From Paracoccus aestuarii (lineage in GTDB: Bacteria; Pseudomonadota; Alphaproteobacteria; Rhodobacterales; Rhodobacteraceae): 64,000 bases of DNA. The translations under genes and the position numbers were made by a program. Positions 3,725-22,861 of the stretch are shown piece after piece; position 1 is the stretch's first letter; each line of letters starts with the position of its first letter. A model generated the notes under the pieces. It saw only the letters and a list, made by a program, of their open reading frames with translations, made no database searches and was not told the DNA's origin. Location: NCBI RefSeq assembly GCF_028553885.1, contig NZ_CP067169.1:2591001-2655000 (forward strand). Direction: 5' to 3'.

Positions 3725-4518
3725 CGATCACGACAAGTCCCGACGCACGAAGCCCGATGCTGCTGGTGCTGCCTTCGCCGGAGGCGGTCGCCCGCCAGGC
3801 GGCGGGTCACATCGCCGACCTGATCAGAAGCAGGCGTGCGCGCGTGCTGGGCCTTGCCACCGGCCGGACCCCGCTCCGGGTCTACGAGCTTCTGTCCGCG
3901 GAGCTGCGGGCCGGCCGTCTGAGCCTTGCCGGCGTCACGACCTTCAATCTCGACGAATATCAGGGCCTCGGCCCTGATCATCCAGCCTCCTTCCGGAGCT
4001 ATATGGAGCAGCACCTGTTCCGACATTCGGATATTGATCCAGCGCACTGGCATGTGCCGGACGGAATGAACCTGGACGGCGATGCCGTGAGAAGCCACTA
4101 CGAGGGACTGATCGTAGCAGCGGGTGGGATCGATCTGCAACTGCTTGGCATCGGGGCGAACGGTCATATCGGCTTCAACGAACCCTTATCGGCGTTCGAC
4201 AGCCGGACCCGCATCGTCAGACTTGCGCCTGAGACGCGTGAAGCAAACTCTGACGAGTTTTCTGACGGCCGAACGCCCGAGCGTGCGATCACCATGGGCA
4301 TCGGCACCATCCTAGAGGCGCGGGAGATACTCCTGCTGGCGTGCGGTGCGGCCAAGGGCGAGGCTCTTGCGGCCATGATAGCAGGCCCTCTGCACCCCAG
4401 CTGCCCGGCATCTGCGTTGAGACTGCATCCGCAGGTTACTGTTCTCTGTGATCACGAGGCAGCGGCAGGTTTAAGCTCCTTCACCGAACTAGGTTCAGGG
4501 TTTACCGGCACCGCCTAG
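3721..4518 (+). CDS. nagB: Glucosamine-6-phosphate deaminase
   Basis: It converts glucosamine-6-phosphate to fructose-6-phosphate and ammonia, feeding amino sugars into glycolysis in the cytoplasm. The 265-aa length matches the family (266 in E. coli). Visible motifs are the TGRTPLRVYE phosphate-binding loop (residues 47-56), TFNLDEY with catalytic Asp78, and GIGANGHIGFNEP with His149 and Glu154. The start overlaps the stop of the truncated ROK gene (ATGA), so they formed one operon. The C-terminus after LSSFTELGSG is short and may have been altered by rearrangement near 4490. Loss of the upstream promoter through the IS may have silenced it. Confidence 0.9.
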   Translation: MTITTSPDARSPMLLVLPSPEAVARQAAGHIADLIRSRRARVLGLATGRTPLRVYELLSAELRAGRLSLAGVTTFNLDEYQGLGPDHPASFRSYMEQHLFRHSDIDPAHWHVPDGMNLDGDAVRSHYEGLIVAAGGIDLQLLGIGANGHIGFNEPLSAFDSRTRIVRLAPETREANSDEFSDGRTPERAITMGIGTILEAREILLLACGAAKGEALAAMIAGPLHPSCPASALRLHPQVTVLCDHEAAAGLSSFTELGSGFTGTA

Positions 4519-4611
4519 GTTCCAGACTTCGGTAACGGGGTCTCCCGGGACCGGGGCGCTGATCGACATGACACCCGCAAGCATGATCGAAAAAAAGAGT
4601 CGTTGAGACAT
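4495..4611 (-). CDS. Possible 38-aa exported peptide or gene remnant
   Basis: A strong ribosome site (GGAGGACA) precedes ATG at 4611. The short product starts MSQRLFFSIMLAGVMS, with a basic start and hydrophobic core like a signal peptide, and stops after 38 residues inside the end of nagB. The good start and abrupt end suggest the 5' remnant of a larger secreted-protein gene cut by a rearrangement, or a genuine small peptide. I cannot tell which. Confidence 0.35.
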   Translation of the reverse strand: MSQRLFFSIMLAGVMSISAPVPGDPVTEVWNLGGAGKP

Positions 4612-5107
4612 GTTGTCCTCCTGCTGCAGCGTCATGCCGCACTACCACGCAGGATTGAGGGCATGCACGAGGGACCGCAATAATACAACCGCGCGCCTCG
4701 CGGCGTCTATCGCAACTTTGTCCACATTGGCTTGGGCAAGGTGCGGCGTTGGAGCCGGATGACGGGCTAGGCGTTGCACGTGCCTTCGACCGCATGGCGG
4801 CCCGTGCGCAGTAGCGGCCAAGCTTCCTCGTATGGCATGATGTGGACTCTTCTCGTCGATCTGCCGCCTCTGGCGCCAGGACGTATGCTGGGCGGCCTCT
4901 GACCCGCGCACTCGGCCGATGCTGCGGCTGCCGTGCTGCACCACGGTCAGGCTGCTTCCCGCCCTTTCAGTCGAACCGGGCGCTCCCCTGACCTTCGGCA
5001 GAGTAAGCGTCCGCTTTTTGGCTGATGCTGCGGTCGCCATGCCACGAACGGGCGGGACGGGGTGCCTAGAGGGCGCGGCCCGGCCTGTCAAGCCGGGGTG
5101 GCGGGTG
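4612..5107. other. Non-coding stretch with degenerate repeats
   Basis: No gene is visible. Around 4950-5040 the same degenerate motifs occur as at 1075-1345 (GCTTCCCGCC; AGCGTCCGCTTT ... ATGCTGC at 5006-5037). The two gaps may share an origin. Confidence 0.45.
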
Positions 5108-6015: not shown

Positions 6016-6771
6016 ATGCCTGCCGTCCGCCCCGCTCTGGCCGAACTGCGTGCCCGGATCGGCGAGATCGACGGCACGGGAGCGCGCCAACACGGTGTGC
6101 TGCCCTTCGGGGTGCGGGAGCTGGACCGCCGCCTGCCACAGGGCGGGTTGTCGCTCGGCGCGCTGCACGAGGTCGCCGGCGGCGGTCAAGGTGCGGTGGA
6201 TGGCGCGGCGGCCGCCTGCTTCGTGGCTGGCATCGCCGCGCGGATGAAGGGCCAGGTGCTGTGGTGCGTGACCCAGACCGATCTCTTCGCGCCGGGACTG
6301 GCGCAGGTCGGCCTGCCGCCCGAGCGGGTGATCCATGTCGAGGCCGGAGACGACATCTCGGTTCTGGCCGCGATGGAGGAAGGGCTGCGCCATGGCGGGC
6401 TGGGCGCGGTGGTCGGCGACGTGGCGCGGCTGTCAATGACCGCCTCGCGCCGGCTGCACCTCGCCGCCAAGGGGTCGGGCACCATCGGGTTGGCGCTCAG
6501 GCGCTGGCGGCGGCAGGCGGATGCCAGCGACTTCGGACAGCCGACCGCGGCGATGACCCGCTGGCGGGTGTCGGAGCTGCCCTCCGCCCCCCTGCCCGTT
6601 CTGGGCATCGGCCGGGCCCGGTGGCTCGTGGAGCTGATCCGAGCCCGGGCAGGGGATTCCTTCGATCTCGAACTGGAGGCATGCGATGGCGCGGGTCATC
6701 TTCGTCTTCCTGCCGATGTGGCCGATCGATCGGCGGCAGCGGCAGGCGGACGTTACATTGCCGCCGGCTGA
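6016..6771 (+). CDS. imuA: ImuA, mutasome accessory protein
   Basis: ImuA is a RecA-like cell-division-inhibitor-type protein that works with ImuB and DnaE2 in SOS mutagenesis across DNA lesions. The 251 residues include the family's opening LRARIGEID, then LPFGVRELDRRLPQGGL and ALHEVAG, and a degenerate RecA-like core without a clear Walker A. AAAGGAG precedes the ATG at a suitable distance. It is first in the three-gene cassette, downstream of the LexA box, and overlaps imuB by 86 nt. Confidence 0.92.
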   Translation: MPAVRPALAELRARIGEIDGTGARQHGVLPFGVRELDRRLPQGGLSLGALHEVAGGGQGAVDGAAAACFVAGIAARMKGQVLWCVTQTDLFAPGLAQVGLPPERVIHVEAGDDISVLAAMEEGLRHGGLGAVVGDVARLSMTASRRLHLAAKGSGTIGLALRRWRRQADASDFGQPTAAMTRWRVSELPSAPLPVLGIGRARWLVELIRARAGDSFDLELEACDGAGHLRLPADVADRSAAAAGGRYIAAG

Positions 6772-8218
6772 GGGGCCGCTGATCATCGCCGGCCGCGTGG
6801 GCAACCGGCGGGTGATCACCGCCGCCTGCCCCGCCGCACTTGATCTGGGCCTGCGGACGGGCATGACTGTCAGCCGGGCGCAGGCGCTGGTGCCCGATCT
6901 GCGCATCGAGGCGGATGACGCCGCCGCAGATGCCGCGGCGCTCGAGCGTCTGGCGCTCTGGTTGCTGCAGCGGGTCGCGCCCATCGTCTCGGCCGATCCG
7001 CCCGACGGGATCGTCATCGACTCGACGGGCGCCGATCATCTGCATGGCGGTGAGGCGGCAATGCTGGAGGCGCTGGCGGGCAAGCTGGCGCTTTCCGGCA
7101 TCACCGCACGGCTGGCCCTGGCCGACAGCTGGGGCGCGGCCCATGCGCTGGCGCATCACGGGGCGGATGGCGTCACCATCGTGCCGCCGGGTGCGTCGGA
7201 CGCCGCGTTGGCGCCCCTGCCGCTGGAGGCTCTGCGCCTGCCCGCTGCCACGGCGGCCGGGCTGCGGGATCTCGGCTTCGAGACCATCGGCGATCTGATG
7301 GACCAGCCGCGCGCGCCCCTGACCCGCCGCTTTGGCGAGGCCCTCTGCCGCCGCCTGGACCAGGCGCGGGGGCTGGCATCCGAGCCGATCGCGCCCCTGC
7401 GCCCGGAGGGGCTGATCGAGATCCGCCGCGCCTTCGCCGAACCCATCGCCGCGCCGGAGACCATCGCTCGCACCATCGGCAAGCTGGTGGGCCAGCTCTG
7501 CACCGAACTGACCGCCAAGGGTCTCGGCGCGCGGCGGCTGGACCTGCTATGCGCGCGGATCGACAACCGCATCGAGGTCCTGCGCGTAGGCCTGGCCGTG
7601 CCGCAGCGCGACCCGGCCAGGCTGACCCGGCTCTTCTGCGACAGGATCGTCACCCTCGATCCGGGCCTCGGCATCGAGATCATGACCCTGACCGCCACCA
7701 TCGCCGAGCCGCTGGTGCCGCGGCAGGCGGCCACCTCGCTACTGGAGGAGGCGGCGCCCGATCTCTCCGGGCTGATCGACACGCTGTCGAACCGGCTTGG
7801 CGCCCGCTCGGTCTTCCGCTTCGCCGCGGTGGCCAGCGACGTGCCGGAACGCGCCATCATCCGCATCCCGCCGCTGGTGGACACGGCCACCCCCGGCATG
7901 GAGGCCTGGCCCGACCACTGGCCCCGGCCCGCCCGCCTGCTGCCGCGGCCCGAGCCGATCGAGACCATGGCGCTGCTGCCCGACCATCCGCCGCGCTGGA
8001 TCCTCTGGCGCGGGGTGCGGCGCCATGTGCAATGCGCCGACGGGCCGGAACGCATCTTCGGCGAGTGGTGGAAGCGTGACGCCGAGGCCCAGGCCGTGCG
8101 CGATTACTTCCGCATCGAGGACGAGGCCGGAGCCCGCTACTGGATCTTCCGGCAAGGCGACGGCGAAGACCAGGCCACCGGATCGCATCGCTGGTTCCTG
8201 CATGGGGTGTTCGGATGA
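6686..8218 (+). CDS. imuB: ImuB, catalytically dead Y-family polymerase homologue
   Basis: ImuB bridges the beta clamp, ImuA and DnaE2. The 510-aa protein has the Y-family fold (palm, fingers, thumb, little finger) but lacks the catalytic acids. Where DinB has DMDAFFASVE it begins [10 protein letters not shown], and where DinB has SxDEAYLD it has [13 protein letters not shown]. The helix-hairpin-helix region [20 protein letters not shown] is clear at about 190-210. The start lies inside imuA (86-nt overlap), so translation is probably coupled; it ends in ATGA with dnaE2. The C-terminal third carries the RIFGEWW-x-RD...YFRIEDE segment typical of ImuB. Confidence 0.92.
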
Positions 8219-11200
8219 GCGGGCCGGGTTACGTTGAGCTGCAGGTCACCTCGGACTTCTCCTTCCTGCGCGGGGCGTCCTCGGCCGAGGAGCTCTTCGC
8301 CACCGCCGCCCTGATGGGGATGGAGGCCCTGGCCATCACCGACCGGAACTCGCTGGCCGGGATCGTCCGCGCGCATGTGGCGGCCAAGGAGACCGGCGTC
8401 CGGCTGATCGTCGGCTGCCGACTGGACCTCAACTGCGGCATGTCACTGCTGGTCTATCCGACCGACCGGCCGGCCTATTCCCACCTCTGTCGGTTGCTGT
8501 CGGTCGGCAAGGCCCGGGCGGGCAAGGGCAAGTGCCATCTGGAATGGTCGGACGTCTCCGAGGCCTGCGAGGGCCTGATCGGCATCTTGATCCCCGATCA
8601 GGCGGATGACCTCTGCGCCCTGCAGCTGCGCCGGATGCGCCAGGCCTTCGGTAACCGCGCCCATCTGGCGCTGACCCTGCGGCGGCGCCCGAACGATCAG
8701 CTGCGGCTCCATGAGTTGTCGAACCTCGCCGCCCGCCTGCGCGTGGCGACGGTGGTCACCAACGACGTGCTGTTCCACGCGCCCGACCGCCGCATCCTGC
8801 AGGACGTGGTGACCGCCATCCGTCACAACACCACCGTCGACGCTCTGGGCTTTCGCCGCGAGCGTCACGCCGACCGTTACATGAAGACGCCGGCGGAGAT
8901 GCACCGGCTGTTCACCCGCTACCCCGAGGCGCTGGCCCGCTCGGCCCGGATCGCGGAGGCCTGCCGCTTCTCGCTGGACGAGCTGGAATACCAGTATCCC
9001 GAGGAGCGCGACGATCCCACCGTCACCGCGCAAGCCACGCTGGAGCGGCTGACCTGGGAGGGCGCGGCCGAACGCTATCCTGAAGGCATCCCGATCGAGG
9101 TCACTGCCAGCCTACAACATGAGTTGCGCCTGATCGACCGGCTGGACTATGCCCCCTACTTCCTGACCGTGAACAGCATCGTCCGCTTCGCCCGATCCCG
9201 CGGCATCCTCTGCCAGGGCCGGGGGTCGGCTGCGAACTCGGCCGTGTGCTTCGTGCTGGGTATCACCTCCATCGATCCGGGGCGCAACGACCTGCTGTTC
9301 GAGCGCTTCGTCAGCGAGGAGCGCCGTGAGCCCCCCGATATCGACGTGGACTTCGAGCATGAGCGGCGCGAGGAGGTCATCCAGTGGATCTACCGCACCT
9401 ATGGCCGCGACCGCGCCGCGCTGACCGCCGTGGTGACCCGCTATCGCTCCAAGGGCGCGCTGCGCGATGTCGGCAAGGCGCTCGGCCTGCCCGAGGACCT
9501 GATCCGCACGCTCTCAAGCCAGATCTGGGCCTGGTCCGAGGAGGGGATCACCGATGACGACCTGCGCGCGCTGAACCTCAACCCCGCCGACCGCCGCCTG
9601 CGCCTGACGCTGGAACTGGCAGCCCAGCTGCGCGGCACGCCGCGGCATCTCAGCCAGCATCCCGGCGGCTTCGTGCTGACCCATGACCGGCTGGACGATC
9701 TCGTGCCCATCGAGCCCGCCGCCATGGAGGATCGCCAGGTCATCGAATGGGACAAGGACGACATCGAGGCGCTGCGCTTCATGAAGGTCGACGTGCTGGC
9801 CCTTGGGATGCTGACCTGCATGTCCAAGGGACTGCAGCTTCTGGCCGATCACAAGGGCATCCGCCATGATCTGGCCTCGATCCCCGCCGAGGATCCGCGC
9901 ACCTATGCGATGATCCGCAAGGCCGACACGCTCGGCACGTTCCAGATCGAGAGCCGGGCGCAGATGTCGATGCTGCCGCGTCTGAGGCCGCGCACCTTCT
10001 ACGATCTGGTCGTGCAGGTGGCGATCGTGCGGCCCGGCCCGATCCAAGGCGACATGGTCCATCCCTATCTGCGCAGGCGCGCGGGACAGGAGGCCGTCTC
10101 CTTCCCGACGCCCGAGCTGGAGAAGGTGCTGGGCAAGACGCTCGGCGTGCCGCTCTTCCAGGAGCAGGCGATGCGGGTCGCCATCGAATGCGCGGGCTTC
10201 ACGCCGGGCGAGGCTGATATGCTCCGCAAATCCATGGCCACCTTCAAGTTCACCGGCGGCGTGTCGAAGTTCCGCGACAAGCTGATCGAGGGGATGGCGG
10301 CGCGCGGCTACGACCGCGACTTCGCCGAGCGCACCTTCCGCCAACTGGAGGGCTTCGGCAGCTACGGCTTTCCCGAAAGCCATGCGGCCAGCTTTGCGCT
10401 GATCTCCTATGCCTCCTCCTGGCTCAAGTGCTGGCATCCGGACGTGTTCTGCACGGCGCTCCTGAACAGCCAGCCGATGGGCTTCTACGCGCCCGCCCAG
10501 ATCGTGCGCGACGCGCGCGATCACGGGGTCGAGGTCCGCCCGGTCTGCATCAACGCTTCCCATTGGGACTGCACGCTGGAGCCGCTTGGCGACGGCCGGC
10601 GCTTCGCCGTCCGGCTGGGGCTGCGGATGGTCAAGGGCCTCGCCAACGCCCATGCGGCGGCGATCGTGCTGACCCGCGCCGACGAGCCCTTCGCCTCGGT
10701 CGAGGATCTGCGCCGCCGCGCGCCGGTGCCGGTGGCGGCACTGACCCGCATCGCCGAGGCGGACGGCTTCCGCACCGCTCTGGGCCTCGCCCGCCGCGAG
10801 GCACTCTGGCAGCTGAAGGCCCTGCGCGACGGTGACCTGCCCCTCTTCGCCGCGACGCCGGCCGGCGATGCCGAGCCCCCCGTGACCCTGCGCCCGATGG
10901 CTGCAGGCCGCGAGGTGGTCGAGGATTACGGCCATACCGGCCTGTCGCTGCGCCGCCATCCGGTGGCCTTCCTGCGCGAGGACCTGACCCGCCGCCGGAT
11001 GATCCCCTGCGCGGAAGCGATGGCCTCCCGCAACCGTCGCCGCTGCGAGGTGGCGGGCATCGTGCTGGTCCGCCAGCGCCCCGGCTCGGCCAAGGGCGTG
11101 ATGTTCATCACGCTGGAGGACGAGACCGGCATCGCCAACCTGGTCGTCTGGCCCAAGGTCTTTGAGGCCAACCGCCGCGCCATCCTAGGCGCCGGCATGA

Positions 11201-11457
11201 TCTCCGTCGCGGGCCATATCCAGCGCGAGGGCGAGGTCGTCCACCTCGTCGTCCAGCGCATCACCGACCTTTCAACTGAGCTTGCCAGCATCGGCAAGCG
11301 CGGCGACGCTTTCCCGCTGACCCACGGGCGCGGCGATGAGTTCAGGGCGACCGGCGGGAGCCTGCCTGGCAACACCGGAACGCCGACGCCGCGCGACATC
11401 TATATCCCGGATCTGCATATCGATACAGTCAGGGTGAAGTCGAAGGACTTCAGGTGA
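8215..11457 (+). CDS. dnaE2: Error-prone DNA polymerase DnaE2
   Basis: This is an alternative C-family polymerase alpha subunit (1080 aa, usual length) that extends across lesions during the SOS response. The N-terminal PHP domain ([17 protein letters not shown], residues 5-22), the polymerase motif [16 protein letters not shown] with the two catalytic aspartates (near residue 376), GRGSAANS, the [11 protein letters not shown] motif, and the C-terminal OB fold ([23 protein letters not shown]) are all visible. It overlaps imuB by ATGA, completing the LexA-controlled cassette. The G+C is high and no damage is seen. Confidence 0.95.
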
Positions 11458-13760: not shown

Positions 13761-13940
13761 ATGAAGCGCCAATCTACCTCCTCGCCCTTCCTGACTGGCG
13801 CGTTCATCTTGGCCTCCTGCATCTGGCAGCATGGTCCAACCGCCGTCGATTGGCTGAAGCTCGGGATGGATCTGCGTGTCCCGGTCGAAGTCTCGGAGCC
13901 GATACAACGTCCGCCGTCAAAGCCTGCACAGCTGCGATGA
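13761..13940 (+). CDS. Small possible lipoprotein, 59 aa
   Basis: A strong AGGAGGAG (13746-13753) precedes the ATG. The product starts MKRQSTSSPFLTGAFILASC, basic then hydrophobic and ending in a lipobox-like LASC, followed by about 38 polar residues. It lies just before the protease cluster. The good ribosome site is the main argument; no homologue is recognised. Confidence 0.4.
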   Translation: MKRQSTSSPFLTGAFILASCIWQHGPTAVDWLKLGMDLRVPVEVSEPIQRPPSKPAQLR

Positions 13941-14016
13941 ACTGCAGCTTCATTGGTTCTTCCCGCCTAATTGCCGCGCGAAAGGCGCGGAAGAACGCCA
14001 TGCCCGGAGCCGACCC

Positions 14017-16173
14017 ATGCCCGACTGGCTGCCCCGCTTCTACACCGCCGCCGCGCTGATCGACGCGCGCCCCCTCACCGCCGAGGAGATGCCCGAGCAT
14101 GTCTTCGAGGCCCTGGTCGAGGGCCGCATCGGTGAGATCGACCTCGAGGAGATCGACGAGACCGTGCCCATCGAGGAGCCCGAGATCAGCTTTGCGGACA
14201 CCCGCCCCGGCCTCGCGCAGCGGCCGCTCAGGGCGCTGGCCTTGGCGCGGCTCTGCCGGGCGCTGCCCACGGCCGAGGATCTGGCCCGGTGGCTAGCGCC
14301 CGGCGCCATCACCGTGATCGCCTGCCGGCCCGCCGGCCTCGCCGGCGATCTGGCCATCGTGCTGGCCCAGCTGATCGAGGCCGAGCACCCAACCCGCAAG
14401 CTGAACCTCGTCTGCAGCTCCGGCCGGGCCACTGCGCCCGAGACCAAGCCGCTGGATGCCGTGGCCGGCTTCTGGAAGGACGCGCTGGCCGAGGGGGGCG
14501 GTGCGCATCTGCTGATCCTCGGGGATGCCGCGCAGCTGCCGCGGCGCATGGCGCGGCTGCTGCCGCCGGTGCTGCAGCTCGGCCCCCCGGACCGGGAGGT
14601 GGTGGCCGCCGCGCTCAGCCTCGGCGATCCCGGCCCGCTGGTCGGCGACTGCGCGCTGCCGCAGGACGCGGCGCTGGCGCGACTCGGTGCCGATGCCTGG
14701 CGCCTGGCGCTGCGGCTGCCGGACCTCGCCGGCCGCGCGGCCGAGTTGCGCCGGCTGACCGAGGTGGCGGCAGGGACACGCGACGCCGGCCCGGTGCTGG
14801 AGGATCTGTGCCTCGACGGCCCCGTCGCCGCGGCGGCCCGGCGGCTGGTCGCGGACATCGCCGCCTGGCGCGCGGGGCGCATCGCCTGGTCGCAGATGAC
14901 CCGCTCGCTGCTGATCTATGGCGAGCCCGGCACCGGCAAGACTTGGCTCGCGCGCGCGGTGGCGGGATCGGCCGGGCTGCCGCTCGTTACCGCCTCGCTG
15001 GCCGAATGGCAGGCGGCGGGCCATCTCGGCGACATGCTGCGCGAGATGCGTGCCGCCTTCGCCCGCGCCCGCAGCAACGCGCCCTGCGTGCTGATCCTCG
15101 ACGAGCTGGACGCCGCCGGCAGCCGCGCCTCGGGCGACCGGCATGCCGTCTCCTACCGCGCGCAGGTGATCGCCGGGCTTCTTCAGGAACTGGACGGAGT
15201 CCTGGGCCTCAAGGGGGTGCTGGTCCTCGCCACCACCAACGACGCCCGCGCCATCGACCCCGCGCTCTTGCGCCCCGGCCGCATCGACCGGGTGCTGGCG
15301 CTGCCGCGCCCCTCCCCGGCGGCGGTGCGCGCCATCCTGGCGCGGTTGGTCGCCGCACTGCCCGGCGCGGTGCGTGGGGCGATCACCGGCGCGGATCTCG
15401 ACCGGCTCTCCCGCCGCGCCGCGGGGCGCAGCCCGGCCGAGCTGGACGCCGCGCTGCGCGAGGCGCAGAGCCGCGCGCGCGAAGCGGGCCGCGCCGTCAC
15501 CGCGGGCGACATTGCCGCCGCGCTCGGGCTCGGGCGCGAGGACCCTGCGGTGCTGCGCCGCGTCGCGGTTCATGAAGCGGGCCACGCGGTGATGCTGCAC
15601 CAGACCCGGCGTGGGCGCATCACCGGCGCGCGGATCGGGATGACCGGCGGCCATGTCGCGGTCGAGGACCTGCCGCTTCTCGACACCCGCGCCGGGCTCG
15701 AGGACCAGCTGGCCTGCTGCCTAGCCGGCCGCGCCGCCGAGGAGCTGATCCTCGGCGCGCCCACCACTGGCGCGGGCGGCGGCGCCGCCTCGGATCTCGG
15801 CCGCGCGACGCAGCTGGCGGCCGAGATCGAGCGCGGCTACGGGCTCGGCGCGGGCCTCCTCTGGCAGGCCGATCCCGGGGCAGTGCTGGCGACGGATCCG
15901 GCCCTGGCGGCGCGGGTCGAGGCGCATCTGCAGCGCGCGCTGCGCCACGCCCGCGCCACGCTCATCGCCGAGCGCCCGCGACTGGAGGCGCTGACCGCAC
16001 GCCTCCTCGCCGAGCGGGTCATCGAGGGCGATCCCTTCGCCGCGCCGCGCACCGCGCCGGCCGCCGCTCGGTGGGGCGCGGAGGCGGGCGCAGACGTCGC
16101 TGCCGTCACCGCCCCTGCTGCTGGCGGCCCCACCGGCCCTGCCGGCACGGAGGCGCGTCATGGCGGCGCGTGA
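14017..16173 (+). CDS. Soluble FtsH-like AAA+/M41 zinc protease with novel N-terminal half
   Basis: The C-terminal two thirds are FtsH-like: Walker A GEPGTGKT (302-309), Walker B VLILDELD (358-365), second region of homology ATTNDARAIDPALLRPGRID (405-424), zinc motif HEAGH (519-523) and the third ligand region ASDLGRATQL (Asp593). FtsH itself begins with membrane helices and a periplasmic domain. Here residues 1-270 are a soluble, unrecognised domain (acidic at 38-62), so this protease is cytosolic. I chose the ATG at 14017 (718 aa) because it begins a plausible protein; the frame is open upstream to 13876. It is followed by an overlapping short gene and three exported-protein genes, a context I do not know. 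Confidence 0.85.
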   Translation: MPDWLPRFYTAAALIDARPLTAEEMPEHVFEALVEGRIGEIDLEEIDETVPIEEPEISFADTRPGLAQRPLRALALARLCRALPTAEDLARWLAPGAITVIACRPAGLAGDLAIVLAQLIEAEHPTRKLNLVCSSGRATAPETKPLDAVAGFWKDALAEGGGAHLLILGDAAQLPRRMARLLPPVLQLGPPDREVVAAALSLGDPGPLVGDCALPQDAALARLGADAWRLALRLPDLAGRAAELRRLTEVAAGTRDAGPVLEDLCLDGPVAAAARRLVADIAAWRAGRIAWSQMTRSLLIYGEPGTGKTWLARAVAGSAGLPLVTASLAEWQAAGHLGDMLREMRAAFARARSNAPCVLILDELDAAGSRASGDRHAVSYRAQVIAGLLQELDGVLGLKGVLVLATTNDARAIDPALLRPGRIDRVLALPRPSPAAVRAILARLVAALPGAVRGAITGADLDRLSRRAAGRSPAELDAALREAQSRAREAGRAVTAGDIAAALGLGREDPAVLRRVAVHEAGHAVMLHQTRRGRITGARIGMTGGHVAVEDLPLLDTRAGLEDQLACCLAGRAAEELILGAPTTGAGGGAASDLGRATQLAAEIERGYGLGAGLLWQADPGAVLATDPALAARVEAHLQRALRHARATLIAERPRLEALTARLLAERVIEGDPFAAPRTAPAAARWGAEAGADVAAVTAPAAGGPTGPAGTEARHGGA

Positions 16174-18567: not shown

Positions 18568-19980
18568 CCGGCGTCGCCAAGGCCGGTTCGAATACAGCAA
18601 ATGCGTTTGGAAATGCGATTTGCTAAACCATTTCGCAAACTCTTTTCAACGCCGAGTTTGGCTCCTCCGCTGCAGTTTCAGACTGAGGAGAGGCACTGGC
18701 CCAGGATCTCAAAAAACGCAGTCTCGGCTCACCTGCAAAAAATGCCTCTGGGAAAACGAAAAAACTACCTCGAAATCCCTTATTTTATTGTAAGAACTGA
18801 AAATTCCCAACACCATGTCTGGAAAACGGTTCAGATGCTTTTCGGAGCAAAAATTGCCTAGATCAAGCCAAACGTGGCCCGCCGGACGAAAAATACCCTG
18901 CATTCGCGGACTCTTGCTGGGAGTTTATGAATCTATAAAAGTATCGTTTATTGATTTAATATTTTTATCGTTCGAGAAGTGCGTTATTTTGCGTTTCCGA
19001 AACATCATCATTTCGCCTCCCCTTAATCTAGGACATCTCTCTGGCAGTGCAAGTCCACGGCGCATCGCACCACAGATAGATTGCATCGCGATGACAGATC
19101 TGGGGTTACCGTCGCAGTTCGGTTCCTCATACGGGAAGCAATCTGAATCCAATCCCCTCAGAGGCCAACGGGATGTTGGAAAGTTCGAAAATTCAACCCG
19201 CCACATGCTGTCTTTGAGAGAGATACAAGAGATGATCAGCCTAAAGCAGCCGGCGGTGCCAAGACGTCAGGCAGTGACGTGCTGCATAGTGCGGACCCAA
19301 ATCGACGACTTAGTCTAGCTCCCTCCATGCAGCGAATGAGACGCGGCCTCGTGCGCAGCACGCGCCTCCATCTGCGCTGACGCCATTGCTTGCCAACGAA
19401 CGTCAGTATCGCAATGTCAGGCCGATACGAGGGCATTGGAGGCTGGCGCTCGGATCCCTGGAGGGCACCAAGACTGCACTCGTTCGCGGACAGGATGGCC
19501 TTTGCGGATCGCGCTGCAGCGAAGAGGAAAGTCGCCATAGGCGCCGGAGCAGAGCGCCATCCTGCTACCTGACACCCCCCGATTACCTGGCAGGCCCGAA
19601 CCGTCGGACGTGCTCCAGACTGACCCCTGCCCCGAGTCAGTTATGCGTGGAATTCGCGGATGGACCGTCCAGCCTTCGTCTCCCTGATGTCTGCGAATGC
19701 CATTTGGAGCCGCTACGTGCAAGGAGCTCGACCGAGCGGACGGTAGACATTCGCATCCGCAAAATGCTGCCGCTTTGGCCCGACAGGCCAAGTTCTTTAG
19801 TTGTCTCCGGCTCTATGAAGAACGCGAATCATCCCCATGAGACCATTTGGTAATAGGCCGCGCCAATTACGAAACAATTCTATAAGTCATTTATAAATAA
19901 TTAATAATTGCCTCAGTCACTCTAAATCGACTTTTTTGGCGCCATATGGGCCAATACAGCCGATTTTCGTTGACAGGACT
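18568..19980. other. Long AT-richer stretch without a supportable gene
   Basis: G+C drops right after the exported-protein cluster. Open frames here (for example 18601-18861 and 19390-19572) lack ribosome sites or recognisable protein character. The part from about 19300 to 19800 looks like eroded coding DNA in several frames but I could not identify a family. Close to the end, 19870-19915 is very AT-rich and may belong to the transfer-origin region of the mob genes. Confidence 0.4.
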
Positions 19981-20001
19981 GATGTCGGTATATCTGACAT
20001 C
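19981..20001. promoter_or_regulatory. Inverted repeat before mobC, candidate operator or oriT part
   Basis: GATGTC (19981-19986) and GACATC (19996-20001) form a perfect 6-bp inverted repeat with a 9-bp spacer, 30 bp before the MobC-like start. In related mobilization systems oriT and the accessory-protein site lie just here. The nick site is not identified. Confidence 0.45.
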
Positions 20002-20031
20002 TACCTCCGTAACGAACAAAGGCGAGACAGC

Positions 20032-20376
20032 ATGAAAGAGAAGGGCAAAGCACCGTCTAAGAACGGCTCTAGCAAGGTTGAGTCTGCGAAGAAAAGAGAG
20101 CGCACCGCTCGCATTTCTGATGAGGACTGGGAGGATATCCGGCGTGCTGCGAAGGCCGTCGGAAAATCGGCAGGCGACTATTTCGTGGACCTGCATCGGC
20201 AGAAAGGGGTCACGCCGAAAATATCGCCTTCAGTCGCAGTTACCAAGTCTGCGCTGGCGCTGCATATGACTCAGCTGACGCGAGCGATCATGCAACAGGA
20301 GGCGCTCTCCGACGATATCTTCGAGGAACTGCTGGCACTCCATATTTTGATGCAGCGCATCATCGAGACGAAATGA
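20032..20376 (+). CDS. MobC/MbeC-like mobilization accessory protein
   Basis: The product (114 aa from the ATG at 20032, after GGCGAG) has a Lys-rich start, then ARISDEDWEDIRRAAKAVG and SAGDYFVDLHRQKG, like the ribbon-helix-helix domain of MobC/MbeC relaxosome proteins. Its helical C-terminal part (LALHMTQLTRAIMQQEAL) fits dimerisation. Its stop overlaps the relaxase start (ATGA at 20373). In ColE1, mbeC occupies the same position before mbeA. The assignment rests on position and the DNA-binding pattern rather than clear sequence identity. Confidence 0.65.
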   Translation: MKEKGKAPSKNGSSKVESAKKRERTARISDEDWEDIRRAAKAVGKSAGDYFVDLHRQKGVTPKISPSVAVTKSALALHMTQLTRAIMQQEALSDDIFEELLALHILMQRIIETK

Positions 20377-22376
20377 TTATCGGGACGGCTCGATACTCCG
20401 GCGACTGCGAGGATAGCATCCCGCGCAAGGCAGTGGATTATTTGGTCGCGCACGGCGTTCCAAAAGACGTCGCAGGGCGCAAGACGACAGTTCTCAGGAC
20501 GCCGGAGCCCGAAACCCTGCTGGGTGACCCGACGGACATAGCTGAGTTCCTGGCGCAGCTTCCTTTTAAGCGGAAGTATCTCTCTCTCGCCGCGACGTTC
20601 GCTGCAGAGGAGGTCGATGTCAAAAGCTTCAACGCCGGATACTGGCGCAAAGAGGCGGGCCTCGTCATCGCGCTGATCCTTGACGCTGCTTACGCAGGTA
20701 TCCCGACCCTCCGCCAGCCGCCAGTCTTCGCCAACTGCCATACGCATACGGGTCGGCTCGAGATCAACTTCCTCCTGCCCCGCGCCATGATCAATGGACA
20801 CGGGCATCTCAGATCATTCACGCCATTCCCTCCGCAAAAGCGTTACGAGGTCTTTCGTTATGTGCTGCAAGAGGCTTTGACTGACAGGCTTGAGCTGATA
20901 GATCCGCGGAGCCCTCTGAGGACCAGGCTCTTCAAACTCCCCTCGTGGATGCACAAGGATCATGCCGAGGCGCTGCGGGCGGGCCTGGACGGCCACAGCC
21001 TGTTTCGCCTGATCGATCCGCTCATCGCTGCGGCCGAGCGCGGAGAGGTGCATGGTCGGGGGGATCTCATTTGCGCGCTGCACCCGCTCCTCGGTGATAT
21101 CGGCCATGTGGTTCATGAGGTTTCGGCCCACTCCGTCACCATCGAGGATACCAAGAGCAGAAAGCGCCTTCCACTGAGTGGATTTTGCTTCAGCGACAGC
21201 TTTCGTGGCCCGCAGGACATTTACGACCTGCGCGACGAAAATGGACCGCTCCATGCCGAACGTCAGCAGCGCCTCGCAGAGGCGGCAGCCACCTATGTCG
21301 GGCTTCGGAACTACTACGCAGATCAGCGAGCCAGCCAGTTTGACCATCCCCCGCCGCCCCTCATTGCCGAGCTGTCTGACATCTCACCCGTGCTTCTTCC
21401 CCAGTTCCACCCCGCGTCAGGAGATCCCCATGTCCAAGCGTTACTCGTTCACGACCGAAGCACTCAGCCCCTTCCGGCGGTTGCTCGAACAGCTGCAGAC
21501 GGCACTGGGCCTGCACTCCGACAGGATCAAGAACCTGGAATCCAGGAACGAGGAGCTGGAAGCGCAGATCCGGCAGATGCTGCCTCGGCTCGAGAGGGTG
21601 GAGCAGGAGAACCGGGACCTGAGGAAGATCTCGGGGATACTAGGTGGCTTGCTCTCGTCGTCCGACGACTGAAGCCCACCTTCCTCCGGGCCATCGCCCG
21701 GATCAAGCGCAACCGCTCCGTCGCGGCTCTTACCCGGGGCCTCGAGCAGCATGCCGCCGCGGCCCTGCCGCACCTTTCTACCCTCATCACAACCTTGGAG
21801 GCCTCCCATGACCGATACCGCCGCGCCGACTCCCCCCTGCGAGCCGCCGGACGACGACAGGATCAGAGAGATCCTGACCCTGCTGCAGGTGATCCAGGGG
21901 CTGCTGAACGATCTCATGGCGGACCGCGAGCAGCACCCCGTTTCGGACGTGATCAAGGACTACCTGAGCGCGATGAAGCTGATGGAGAGCCATCTCGCCG
22001 ATACGGTGAAAATCCTGACGCAGCTCATCGCGCAGCTGACCGAGGCTACCCGCGTTCAGGAGGTCGAGAGATCCCGTCAGAACCGGGCCATGGCGGACCG
22101 AATGGATCGCCTCGACGCGAAGCTCGACAGGATCCTCGACCTCCTCGGGGAGCCGATGTCGAACCCGGACGCGGGCTGACCCGGGCCGCCATGATCCGCG
22201 CGACCTGGGATCAGGCCCGGGCGGAACACCAGCGGCCTCACGCCATCCGCTTCATCAACGACGCAGACGGACCGGCAATGGTGGCCCGGATTGGCGACGA
22301 CCCGTGGCGTCATGACGGTTTCGATCTCGACCCCGTCGAGCCGGAACGCCCGGCAGACGATGATTTCTCGCCGTAG
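20373..22376 (+). CDS. HEN-type (ColE1/MbeA-like) relaxase
   Basis: A relaxase nicks oriT through a tyrosine and leads the strand into the recipient. In ColE1-type relaxases Tyr lies in a VDYLL motif and metal binding uses H-x6-E-x-N. Here Tyr23 is in AVDYLVAHG, and His123, Glu130 and Asn132 occur in CHTHTGRLEINFLLPR with exactly that spacing. LGDP (50-53) and the KRKYLSLAATFAAEE segment also match the family order. The catalytic domain covers about residues 1-250. The remaining 400 codons stay open although two other genes are nested in another frame. Stretches free of nested genes (VVRRLKPTFLRAIARIK; RAAMIRATWDQARAEHQRP) look coding. The start overlaps mobC. Confidence 0.8.
   Translation: MIIGTARYSGDCEDSIPRKAVDYLVAHGVPKDVAGRKTTVLRTPEPETLLGDPTDIAEFLAQLPFKRKYLSLAATFAAEEVDVKSFNAGYWRKEAGLVIALILDAAYAGIPTLRQPPVFANCHTHTGRLEINFLLPRAMINGHGHLRSFTPFPPQKRYEVFRYVLQEALTDRLELIDPRSPLRTRLFKLPSWMHKDHAEALRAGLDGHSLFRLIDPLIAAAERGEVHGRGDLICALHPLLGDIGHVVHEVSAHSVTIEDTKSRKRLPLSGFCFSDSFRGPQDIYDLRDENGPLHAERQQRLAEAAATYVGLRNYYADQRASQFDHPPPPLIAELSDISPVLLPQFHPASGDPHVQALLVHDRSTQPLPAVARTAADGTGPALRQDQEPGIQERGAGSADPADAASAREGGAGEPGPEEDLGDTRWLALVVRRLKPTFLRAIARIKRNRSVAALTRGLEQHAAAALPHLSTLITTLEASHDRYRRADSPLRAAGRRQDQRDPDPAAGDPGAAERSHGGPRAAPRFGRDQGLPERDEADGEPSRRYGENPDAAHRAADRGYPRSGGREIPSEPGHGGPNGSPRREARQDPRPPRGADVEPGRGLTRAAMIRATWDQARAEHQRPHAIRFINDADGPAMVARIGDDPWRHDGFDLDPVEPERPADDDFSP
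21430..21672 (+). CDS. Nested MbeB-like coiled-coil protein
   Basis: This 80-aa frame lies wholly inside the relaxase gene, one frame off. CAGGAG lies 7-8 nt before its ATG. The product is a coiled coil with a heptad pattern (FRRLLEQLQTALGLHSDRI, NEELEAQIRQML, LERVEQENRDLRKI). In ColE1, mbeB is nested in mbeA in the same way. MbeB-type proteins stabilise the relaxase at oriT. The name is by position and character. Confidence 0.6.
   Translation: MSKRYSFTTEALSPFRRLLEQLQTALGLHSDRIKNLESRNEELEAQIRQMLPRLERVEQENRDLRKISGILGGLLSSSDD
21808..22179 (+). CDS. Nested MbeD-like helical protein
   Basis: A second nested frame, 123 aa, in the same frame as the 21430 gene. GGAGG lies 8 nt before the ATG. The protein is almost entirely helical and amphipathic (IREILTLLQVIQGLLNDLMA, SAMKLMESHLADTVKILTQL, MADRMDRLDAKLDRILDLL). 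ColE1 mbeD has the corresponding place inside mbeA and encodes a helical protein involved in mobilization and entry exclusion. The similarity is architectural. Confidence 0.55.
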   Translation: MTDTAAPTPPCEPPDDDRIREILTLLQVIQGLLNDLMADREQHPVSDVIKDYLSAMKLMESHLADTVKILTQLIAQLTEATRVQEVERSRQNRAMADRMDRLDAKLDRILDLLGEPMSNPDAG

Positions 22377-22427: not shown

Positions 22428-22655
22428 ATGGAATCCGACTGCAAGACGATACCCCACTGGCTATCGAAGAAACATCTCTGCTCTAACGACGATCTGCAGC
22501 GTGTCTTCGGCGTAACGAGGAGCACCATCGACAGGTGGGCAAAGGAGCGTCCCGGGTTTCCAAGGAAGGTCCGACTTGGTGATGAGCACGGATCGATCGT
22601 GAGGTTCTACACGTCCGACGTTCAGCAGTATCTGTCGAGGATCACAAAAGCGTAA
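22428..22655 (+). CDS. AlpA-like helix-turn-helix regulator or excisionase
   Basis: The 75-aa protein has the AlpA/MerR-type winged helix-turn-helix: LSKKHLCSNDDLQRVFGVTRSTIDRWAK, then PGFPRKVRLGD and FYTSDVQQYLSR. Such proteins control integrase or excision genes of integrated elements. GAGGAAG precedes the start. It is 130 bp from the 3' end of a tRNA gene, the usual position near an attachment site, but no integrase is present in the window. The stretch 22656-22784 has no other supported feature. Confidence 0.75.
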   Translation: MESDCKTIPHWLSKKHLCSNDDLQRVFGVTRSTIDRWAKERPGFPRKVRLGDEHGSIVRFYTSDVQQYLSRITKA

Positions 22656-22784
22656 ATTCTCCGAAGCGGAGGACGATACTGAGTCTGTGCCACGTCAGTG
22701 CCACGGCCTCATCGAAAAATCTGTCGGTGAACTGACAGCGTTTGCCACTGATCCTTCAAGGCCATGCAAAGCTTGAGGTTTTTT

Positions 22785-22861
22785 TGGTAGCGGAGGAGGG
22801 ACTTGAACCCCCGACACGCGGATTATGATTCCGCTGCTCTAACCAACTGAGCTACTCCGCC
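22785..22861 (-). tRNA. tRNA-Met (anticodon CAT)
   Basis: On the minus strand it starts GGCGGAG and ends with encoded CCA (22785). D-arm AGCTCAGTTGGTTAGAGC, anticodon stem GCGGA/TCCGC with loop ATCATAA (anticodon CAT), and T-arm GGGGGTTCAAGTCCC are all present. The form looks like elongator tRNA-Met. Its 3' end points to the mobile region on the left, so it may be the integration site. Confidence 0.93.

Follow-up and report, generated by a model that had tools for sequence, protein, structure and literature searches.

Two small open reading frames lie wholly inside a relaxase-like gene on the chromosome of Paracoccus aestuarii. This locus raises the question of whether the same DNA is read in two frames and, if so, what kind of module the genes form. 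The window, i.e. the whole stretch of DNA that was analysed, comprises 64,000 nucleotides (G000:C1:2591001-2655000). Coordinates refer to the window unless they carry a genome (G000) or locus (L) prefix. The nearest named relative of the window is Paracoccus tibetensis. With a probability of about 0.83, the genes are those by which an integrated element is mobilized, and their central component is a divergent MOB-HEN relaxase of HUH fold. We infer its part in transfer from what is known of the family.

Layout of the locus

The features of the module and its right-hand border are as follows.

19842..19951, no strand assigned: candidate oriT block, AT-rich, non-coding and conserved, located 5' of mobC
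20032..20376, plus strand: mobC-like gene (114 aa), putative DNA-binding accessory of the relaxosome
20373..22376, plus strand: relaxase gene (667 aa), divergent MOB-HEN/MbeA-like
20373..21428, plus strand: predicted catalytic region of the relaxase, codons 1-352, single-coded, with third-position-biased divergence
21430..21672, plus strand: nested gene 1 (80 aa), coiled-coil and weakly MbeD-like, in the +1 frame wholly within the relaxase gene
21673..21807, plus strand: single-coded relaxase segment between the nested genes, codons 434-478, a hydrophobic, helix-like peptide
21808..22179, plus strand: nested gene 2 (123 aa), a long helical protein, in the +1 frame wholly within the relaxase gene
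22180..22376, plus strand: single-coded C-terminal tail of the relaxase, with third-position bias
22428..22655, plus strand: AlpA/excisionase-like helix-turn-helix gene (75 aa) with PHROG matches
22785-22861, minus strand: tRNA-Met, adjoining the module
22785..22834, no strand assigned: 3' half of tRNA-Met, candidate attachment core with an exact copy at G000:C1:2552552-2552601

The relaxase frame is open from 20373 to 22376, in agreement with the 667 codons of the original prediction. Its start overlaps the stop of the mobC-like gene by 4 nt (ATGA at 20373). An intact orthologous gene of 667 codons is present in P. tibetensis at the same tRNA-Met. The GC content drops from ~0.72 to 0.45-0.65 across 18.6-22.8 kb. 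Within this region the 1.4 kb before mobC (18600-20031) are low in GC and hold no convincing gene; their position is conserved in P. tibetensis. The tRNA is the sole match of an Rfam scan. Further to the left, in a very GC-rich stretch, lies a gene of 765 codons (13876-16173) which we take, from its translation alone, to encode an FtsH-like AAA protease. Positions 6016-11457 presumably hold an imuA-imuB-dnaE2-like mutagenesis cassette, likewise recognised from the translations alone.

The relaxase is a divergent MOB-HEN type

The NCBIfam profile MbeA matches residues 49-281 of the window relaxase with E 4e-7; at 29.6 bits, the score is far below the cut-off, which is 500. The profile also matches 22 of the 24 homologues (best E 4.5e-21). 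No relaxase family was matched in the Pfam scan. The predicted active-site residues, Tyr23 as the motif I tyrosine expected near residue 20 and the motif III triad H123-x6-E130-x-N132, are all present (HTHTGRLEIN, residues 123-132). In the alignment of 24 members Tyr23 and Glu130 never vary, and conservation reaches at least 90% at His123 and Asn132.

A search of PDB sequences with the relaxase profile yielded nothing significant, and the relation was then resolved by fold comparison. The AlphaFold model of residues 1-352, built with 21 sequences, has a pLDDT of 91. In a comparison with the PDB by VIA-align the best 23 matches are all conjugative relaxases (Z 6.8-9.2), whereas the first unrelated protein scores 4.3. 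Staphylococcal NES (4ht4) and R1162 MobA (2ns6) are the top matches, both with Z 9.2. According to the model, the N-terminal 352 residues have the relaxase (HUH) fold.

The local identity between the window relaxase and the ColE1 relaxase is ~27%. In the phylogenetic tree the window family groups in a single clade with a support of 97/88, next to the ColE1/pMARC2 clade and apart from a third HEN group. Judged by profile, motif and tree, the window relaxase is a divergent MOB-HEN type related to MbeA of ColE1.

Both frames of the overlaps are under purifying selection

Each nested gene is preceded by a Shine-Dalgarno sequence 6 nt before its ATG (AGGAG for nested gene 1, GGAGG for nested gene 2), which bears out the good ribosome sites noted in the original prediction. 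Nested gene 2 could also start further upstream, at the in-frame ATG at 21751. Of the two nested genes, the first was detected in 17 homologous loci, none of them in the Sulfitobacter W074/indolifex group, and the second in 24. The nested starts with their Shine-Dalgarno sites and the nested proteins are conserved in these homologues.

The length of the nested frames was rejected as proof that they are genes, because the nested intervals stay open in 17-96% of trials when the relaxase codons are shuffled synonymously. This openness is what speaks for regarding the nested frames as accidents of GC-rich DNA, with the relaxase alone being expressed. The pattern of substitutions is decisive here. 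Between the window and P. tibetensis the differences at relaxase codon positions 1/2/3 are 30/17/69 before nested gene 1 and 2/0/8 in the tail, and 6/10/6 across both nested segments. The codon-position analysis proposed for the homologues was carried out on six independent pairs. Their single-coded segments differ at 577/428/981 sites (third position 981 of 1986 differences) and their nested segments at 243/162/134 (third position 134 of 539). Thus, the position pattern switches at the nested segments (combined Fisher p = 3e-25). Five of the six pairs are significant singly; the pair L061/L063 is not (p = 0.09). These two loci belong to a group of five family copies in one genome of the same genus (G247, L060-L064), in which two relaxase frames are cut to 440 and 432 aa.

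The third position of the relaxase frame is the second position of the nested frame, and it is the slowest-changing one within the nested segments. Hence, constraint is stronger on the nested frame than on the relaxase frame. An accidental origin of the nested frames is contradicted by this codon signature, seen in the clades tested, by the conserved nested proteins and Shine-Dalgarno starts, and by the RefSeq annotation, which independently calls nested genes in several plasmids and misses the relaxase there. Such an origin appears extremely improbable.

The dominance of the nested frame, together with the low-complexity, less conserved relaxase peptide of the overlaps, also suggests the opposite simplification. 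The relaxase proper might stop around nested gene 1, the overlap frame being open passively and the tail being a separate product with its own start or made by a frameshift from nested gene 2. A natural example of such a division is found at L021 (3103-4850, genome G081), where a frameshift before nested gene 2 limits the catalytic relaxase frame to 383 aa. There, nested gene 2 (4297-4608) is intact and overlies the former relaxase frame, which has stayed open; the tail lies in its own ORF (4569-4850).

Several observations argue against a short relaxase. No stop interrupts the relaxase frame within the overlaps in any of the 24 loci with nested gene 2, an outcome somewhat favoured by the choice of loci for carrying both frames. 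When the codons of nested gene 2 are shuffled, the relaxase frame stays open in just 2.8% of trials for the window and in 1-8% for several homologues, and its general openness is therefore improbable for several loci. Nested synonymous sites diverge by 0.235 compared to 0.330 at relaxase third positions outside the overlaps (six pairs), so the relaxase frame constrains the overlap too. Third-position bias marks the single-coded parts, and in most clades it reappears in the tail; the close pair L051/L052, with a tail lacking this bias, is the exception. The return of the relaxase pattern after the nested genes indicates that both frames are coding. Furthermore, no in-frame start preceded by a Shine-Dalgarno sequence is found near the tail in the window and in most homologues. 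Translation of a relaxase that ends around nested gene 1 is thus unlikely, and an uninterrupted protein of 667 aa is the preferred reading. Taken together, double coding with purifying selection on both frames is well supported by the comparison of the sequences.

Architecture of the relaxase and its nested proteins

In the relaxase, the order is catalytic domain, overlap, helical segment, overlap and C-terminal tail. The relaxase-frame peptides of the overlaps are polar, of low complexity and low hydrophobicity (5-15% hydrophobic residues for overlap 2) and less conserved. The middle segment and the tail, by comparison, are ~30% hydrophobic and recognisably conserved. In most homologues the middle segment ends in an LETL-type motif, and the Shine-Dalgarno sequence of nested gene 2 lies within the codons of this conserved motif. 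Going by their composition, the linkers encoded by the overlaps are probably disordered. A simple rule would follow: folded parts of the relaxase lie in DNA that is read once, and polar linkers in DNA that is read twice.

For the product of nested gene 2, two long helices are predicted (mean pLDDT 74). No Pfam, NCBIfam or PHROG family was found for it, and scans of the nested proteins against these collections gave just low-scoring coiled-coil or chance matches. A profile comparison of nested gene 1 with MbeD gave an hhalign probability of 60% (E 9e-5 for a single comparison), a value that coiled coils could inflate. For nested gene 2, identity with MbeB (hhalign 0.1%) and with MbeD (4.5%) was rejected.

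The original prediction equated the locus with the order mbeC-mbeA-mbeB-mbeD of ColE1. The arrangement is upheld: a small mobC-like gene lies upstream of a relaxase related to that of ColE1, and inside the relaxase gene two genes for helical proteins occupy the +1 frame, as mbeB and mbeD do. Together with the weak match of nested gene 1 to MbeD, this would fit a plain ColE1 module that is orthologous gene by gene. A one-to-one match does not hold, however. A counterpart of MbeB, a protein of about 161-172 aa that contains a membrane-spanning stretch, is absent among the nested proteins of the window, and nested gene 2 resembles neither accessory. The Pfam family MbeD_MobD matches the ColE1-type control at 7e-34 but no nested protein, and the relaxase clade is separate from the ColE1 and pMARC2 types. 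Orthology of every gene to ColE1 is therefore very unlikely, and a related module with an accessory set of its own is the reading followed here.

The mobC-like gene and the candidate oriT

Every homologue examined has a small gene before the relaxase that overlaps its start by 1-10 nt. The protein of the window has a weak, sub-threshold match to the Pfam NikA-like family (E 0.011) and a match to Arc-like repressors (E 8e-4). These matches weakly suggest a MobC-like protein.

An alignment of the block 19842-19951 with P. tibetensis shows 5 differences over ~110 nt (~95% identity), whereas the surrounding intergenic DNA is more divergent. A palindromic sequence, TTTATAAA, is located near 19890 within the block. 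In other MOB-HEN modules the oriT-type position is likewise upstream of mobC (PMC3832669). No nic site was identified. From its position and conservation, the block is a candidate oriT.

A probable integrated element at tRNA-Met

The 50-nt 3' half of tRNA-Met has an exact copy 61 kb to the left of the tRNA gene, followed by a tyrosine integrase. Core copy and integrase (G000:C1:2552552-2554223) lie 38 kb beyond the left edge of the window. This arrangement fits an integrated element that has relaxase and integrase at opposite ends. The two core copies may bound an integrated island of 61 kb that includes positions 1-22784 of the window. In P. tibetensis the same core and integrase (93%) are present on another contig. 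No empty site of the 61-kb island was found among the relatives. The DNA to the left of their tRNA-Met differs from that bordering the core copy on the left, so the boundary of the island is tentative.

The AlpA-like gene has PHROG matches to excisionases and DNA-binding proteins; the matches to Pfam HTH_17 and Phage_AlpA are below the cut-off. It is also present in P. tibetensis and beside a second copy of the module. Between this gene and the tRNA lies the exact repeat GTGCCAC-n4-GTGCCAC (22687-22704), and a similar repeat is found beside tRNA-Phe in L010 (about 4850-4868). Possibly, these repeats are arm sites of the integrase.

This genome carries the module twice, and the second copy (L010 4909-6575; G000:C1, ~1.524 Mb) is located at tRNA-Phe. 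No core copy was found for this locus. Its mobC is interrupted next to a transposase-like sequence and an 845-bp deletion removes both nested genes. The clear decay of this copy raises the question of whether the module at tRNA-Met, too, is a decayed remnant, once active in mobilization and now inactive in this chromosome. The gene-poor, low-GC stretch before mobC would agree with this, as would the fact that transfer-channel genes were not seen adjoining the module. All frames of the module are intact, however, and constrained in comparison with P. tibetensis. Inactivity is thus improbable, though less so than the rival explanations discussed above, and a functional mobilization module is the preferred reading. 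Yet another HEN-type relaxase, with an open frame of 517 codons, is found on a different contig of this genome (G000:C7:3228-4022).

Proposed working of the module

The MobC-like protein and the relaxase would bind an oriT located upstream of mobC. The site formed by Tyr23 with His123, Glu130 and Asn132 would nick one strand, and the relaxase would pilot the nicked strand into a conjugation channel provided by another element. Two frames of the relaxase mRNA would be translated. Initiation at the relaxase start would yield the protein of 667 aa, in which the catalytic domain, the helical middle and the C-terminal tail come from DNA used once and are joined by linkers from DNA used twice. From the two internal Shine-Dalgarno sites, two small helical proteins would be made. 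By analogy with MbeB and MbeD, these are probably accessories of the relaxosome or of coupling.

Distribution and annotation of the family

HEN-type relaxases were found in 78 of 293 Rhodobacterales genomes of an order-wide sample, about 12 of which have the high scores of the window clade. No relatives were confirmed on viral contigs. The plasmid members are annotated as hypothetical, and the ORF that is called may be the relaxase, the nested genes or ORFs on the opposite strand. Double coding explains this failure of annotation: a pipeline picks either the nested genes or the relaxase.

Several plasmids carrying family members are typed as non-mobilizable. Among them are pDSM14862_a, _b and _d, for which Table 1 of the original paper (PMC9025767) gives the mobility as 'no'; each carries a relaxase of the window family. 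The family thus explains why these plasmids were recorded without mobility genes. A 2026 survey counted mobQ relaxases alone and called about two thirds of the Sulfitobacter plasmids non-mobilizable (PMC13386836). Standard typing misses the module on many plasmids.

A wider reading, held tentatively and at somewhat less than even odds, is that the family represents a distinct Rhodobacterales clade of HEN relaxases with an interleaved dual-coding gene. Nested gene 2 would then found a new accessory family, many "non-mobilizable" plasmids would be made transferable, and the nesting would predate the split from the ColE1 lineage.

Comparison with known systems

The ColE1 module shares with the window module a small gene before a HEN-motif relaxase. 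In both, the relaxase gene completely encloses two accessory genes in the +1 frame and ends in a short tail after them. In the ColE1-type plasmids examined, mbeB and mbeD lie in the same +1 frame within the HEN relaxase gene. They are nearly contiguous, whereas the window family has a helical relaxase segment between the nested genes. The accessory content differs as described above. In addition, ColE1 modules are carried by small multicopy plasmids and those of the window family by chromosomes or large plasmids. In the ColE1-type control the third-position bias of the single-coded parts weakens in the nested genes without reversing; the dominance of the nested frame is thus stronger in the window family.

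The N-terminal domain shares its fold with R1162 MobA and staphylococcal NES, both of the MOBQ type (148 residues aligned, 3.3-3.9 Å). The sequence identity is 6-10%, and the window relaxase has the H-E-N set instead of a histidine triad. Plasmids of Sulfitobacter and Paracoccus yeei, such as pDSM14862_a, _b and _d and pYEE3, carry the same family with the same architecture. Unlike the window module, these relatives are plasmid-borne, annotated as hypothetical and typed non-mobilizable or with mobility 'no'.

The original prediction set the alphaproteobacterial location of this dense double coding against its known occurrence in enterobacterial plasmids. MOB-HEN modules with overlapping mobB and mobC genes are already published for the Paracoccus plasmids pMARC2 and pAES4 (PMC3832669), so such overlaps were known from the genus before. 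Both plasmids resemble the window module in these features; pMARC2 differs in that it falls in the ColE1-type clade and has two downstream genes that nearly adjoin each other, like those of ColE1. What is new here is the clade, the set of nested genes, their interleaving with the relaxase and the demonstration of dual constraint. Double coding of accessories inside a relaxase gene is conserved far beyond the enterobacterial plasmids, between relaxases down to ~25-30% identical.
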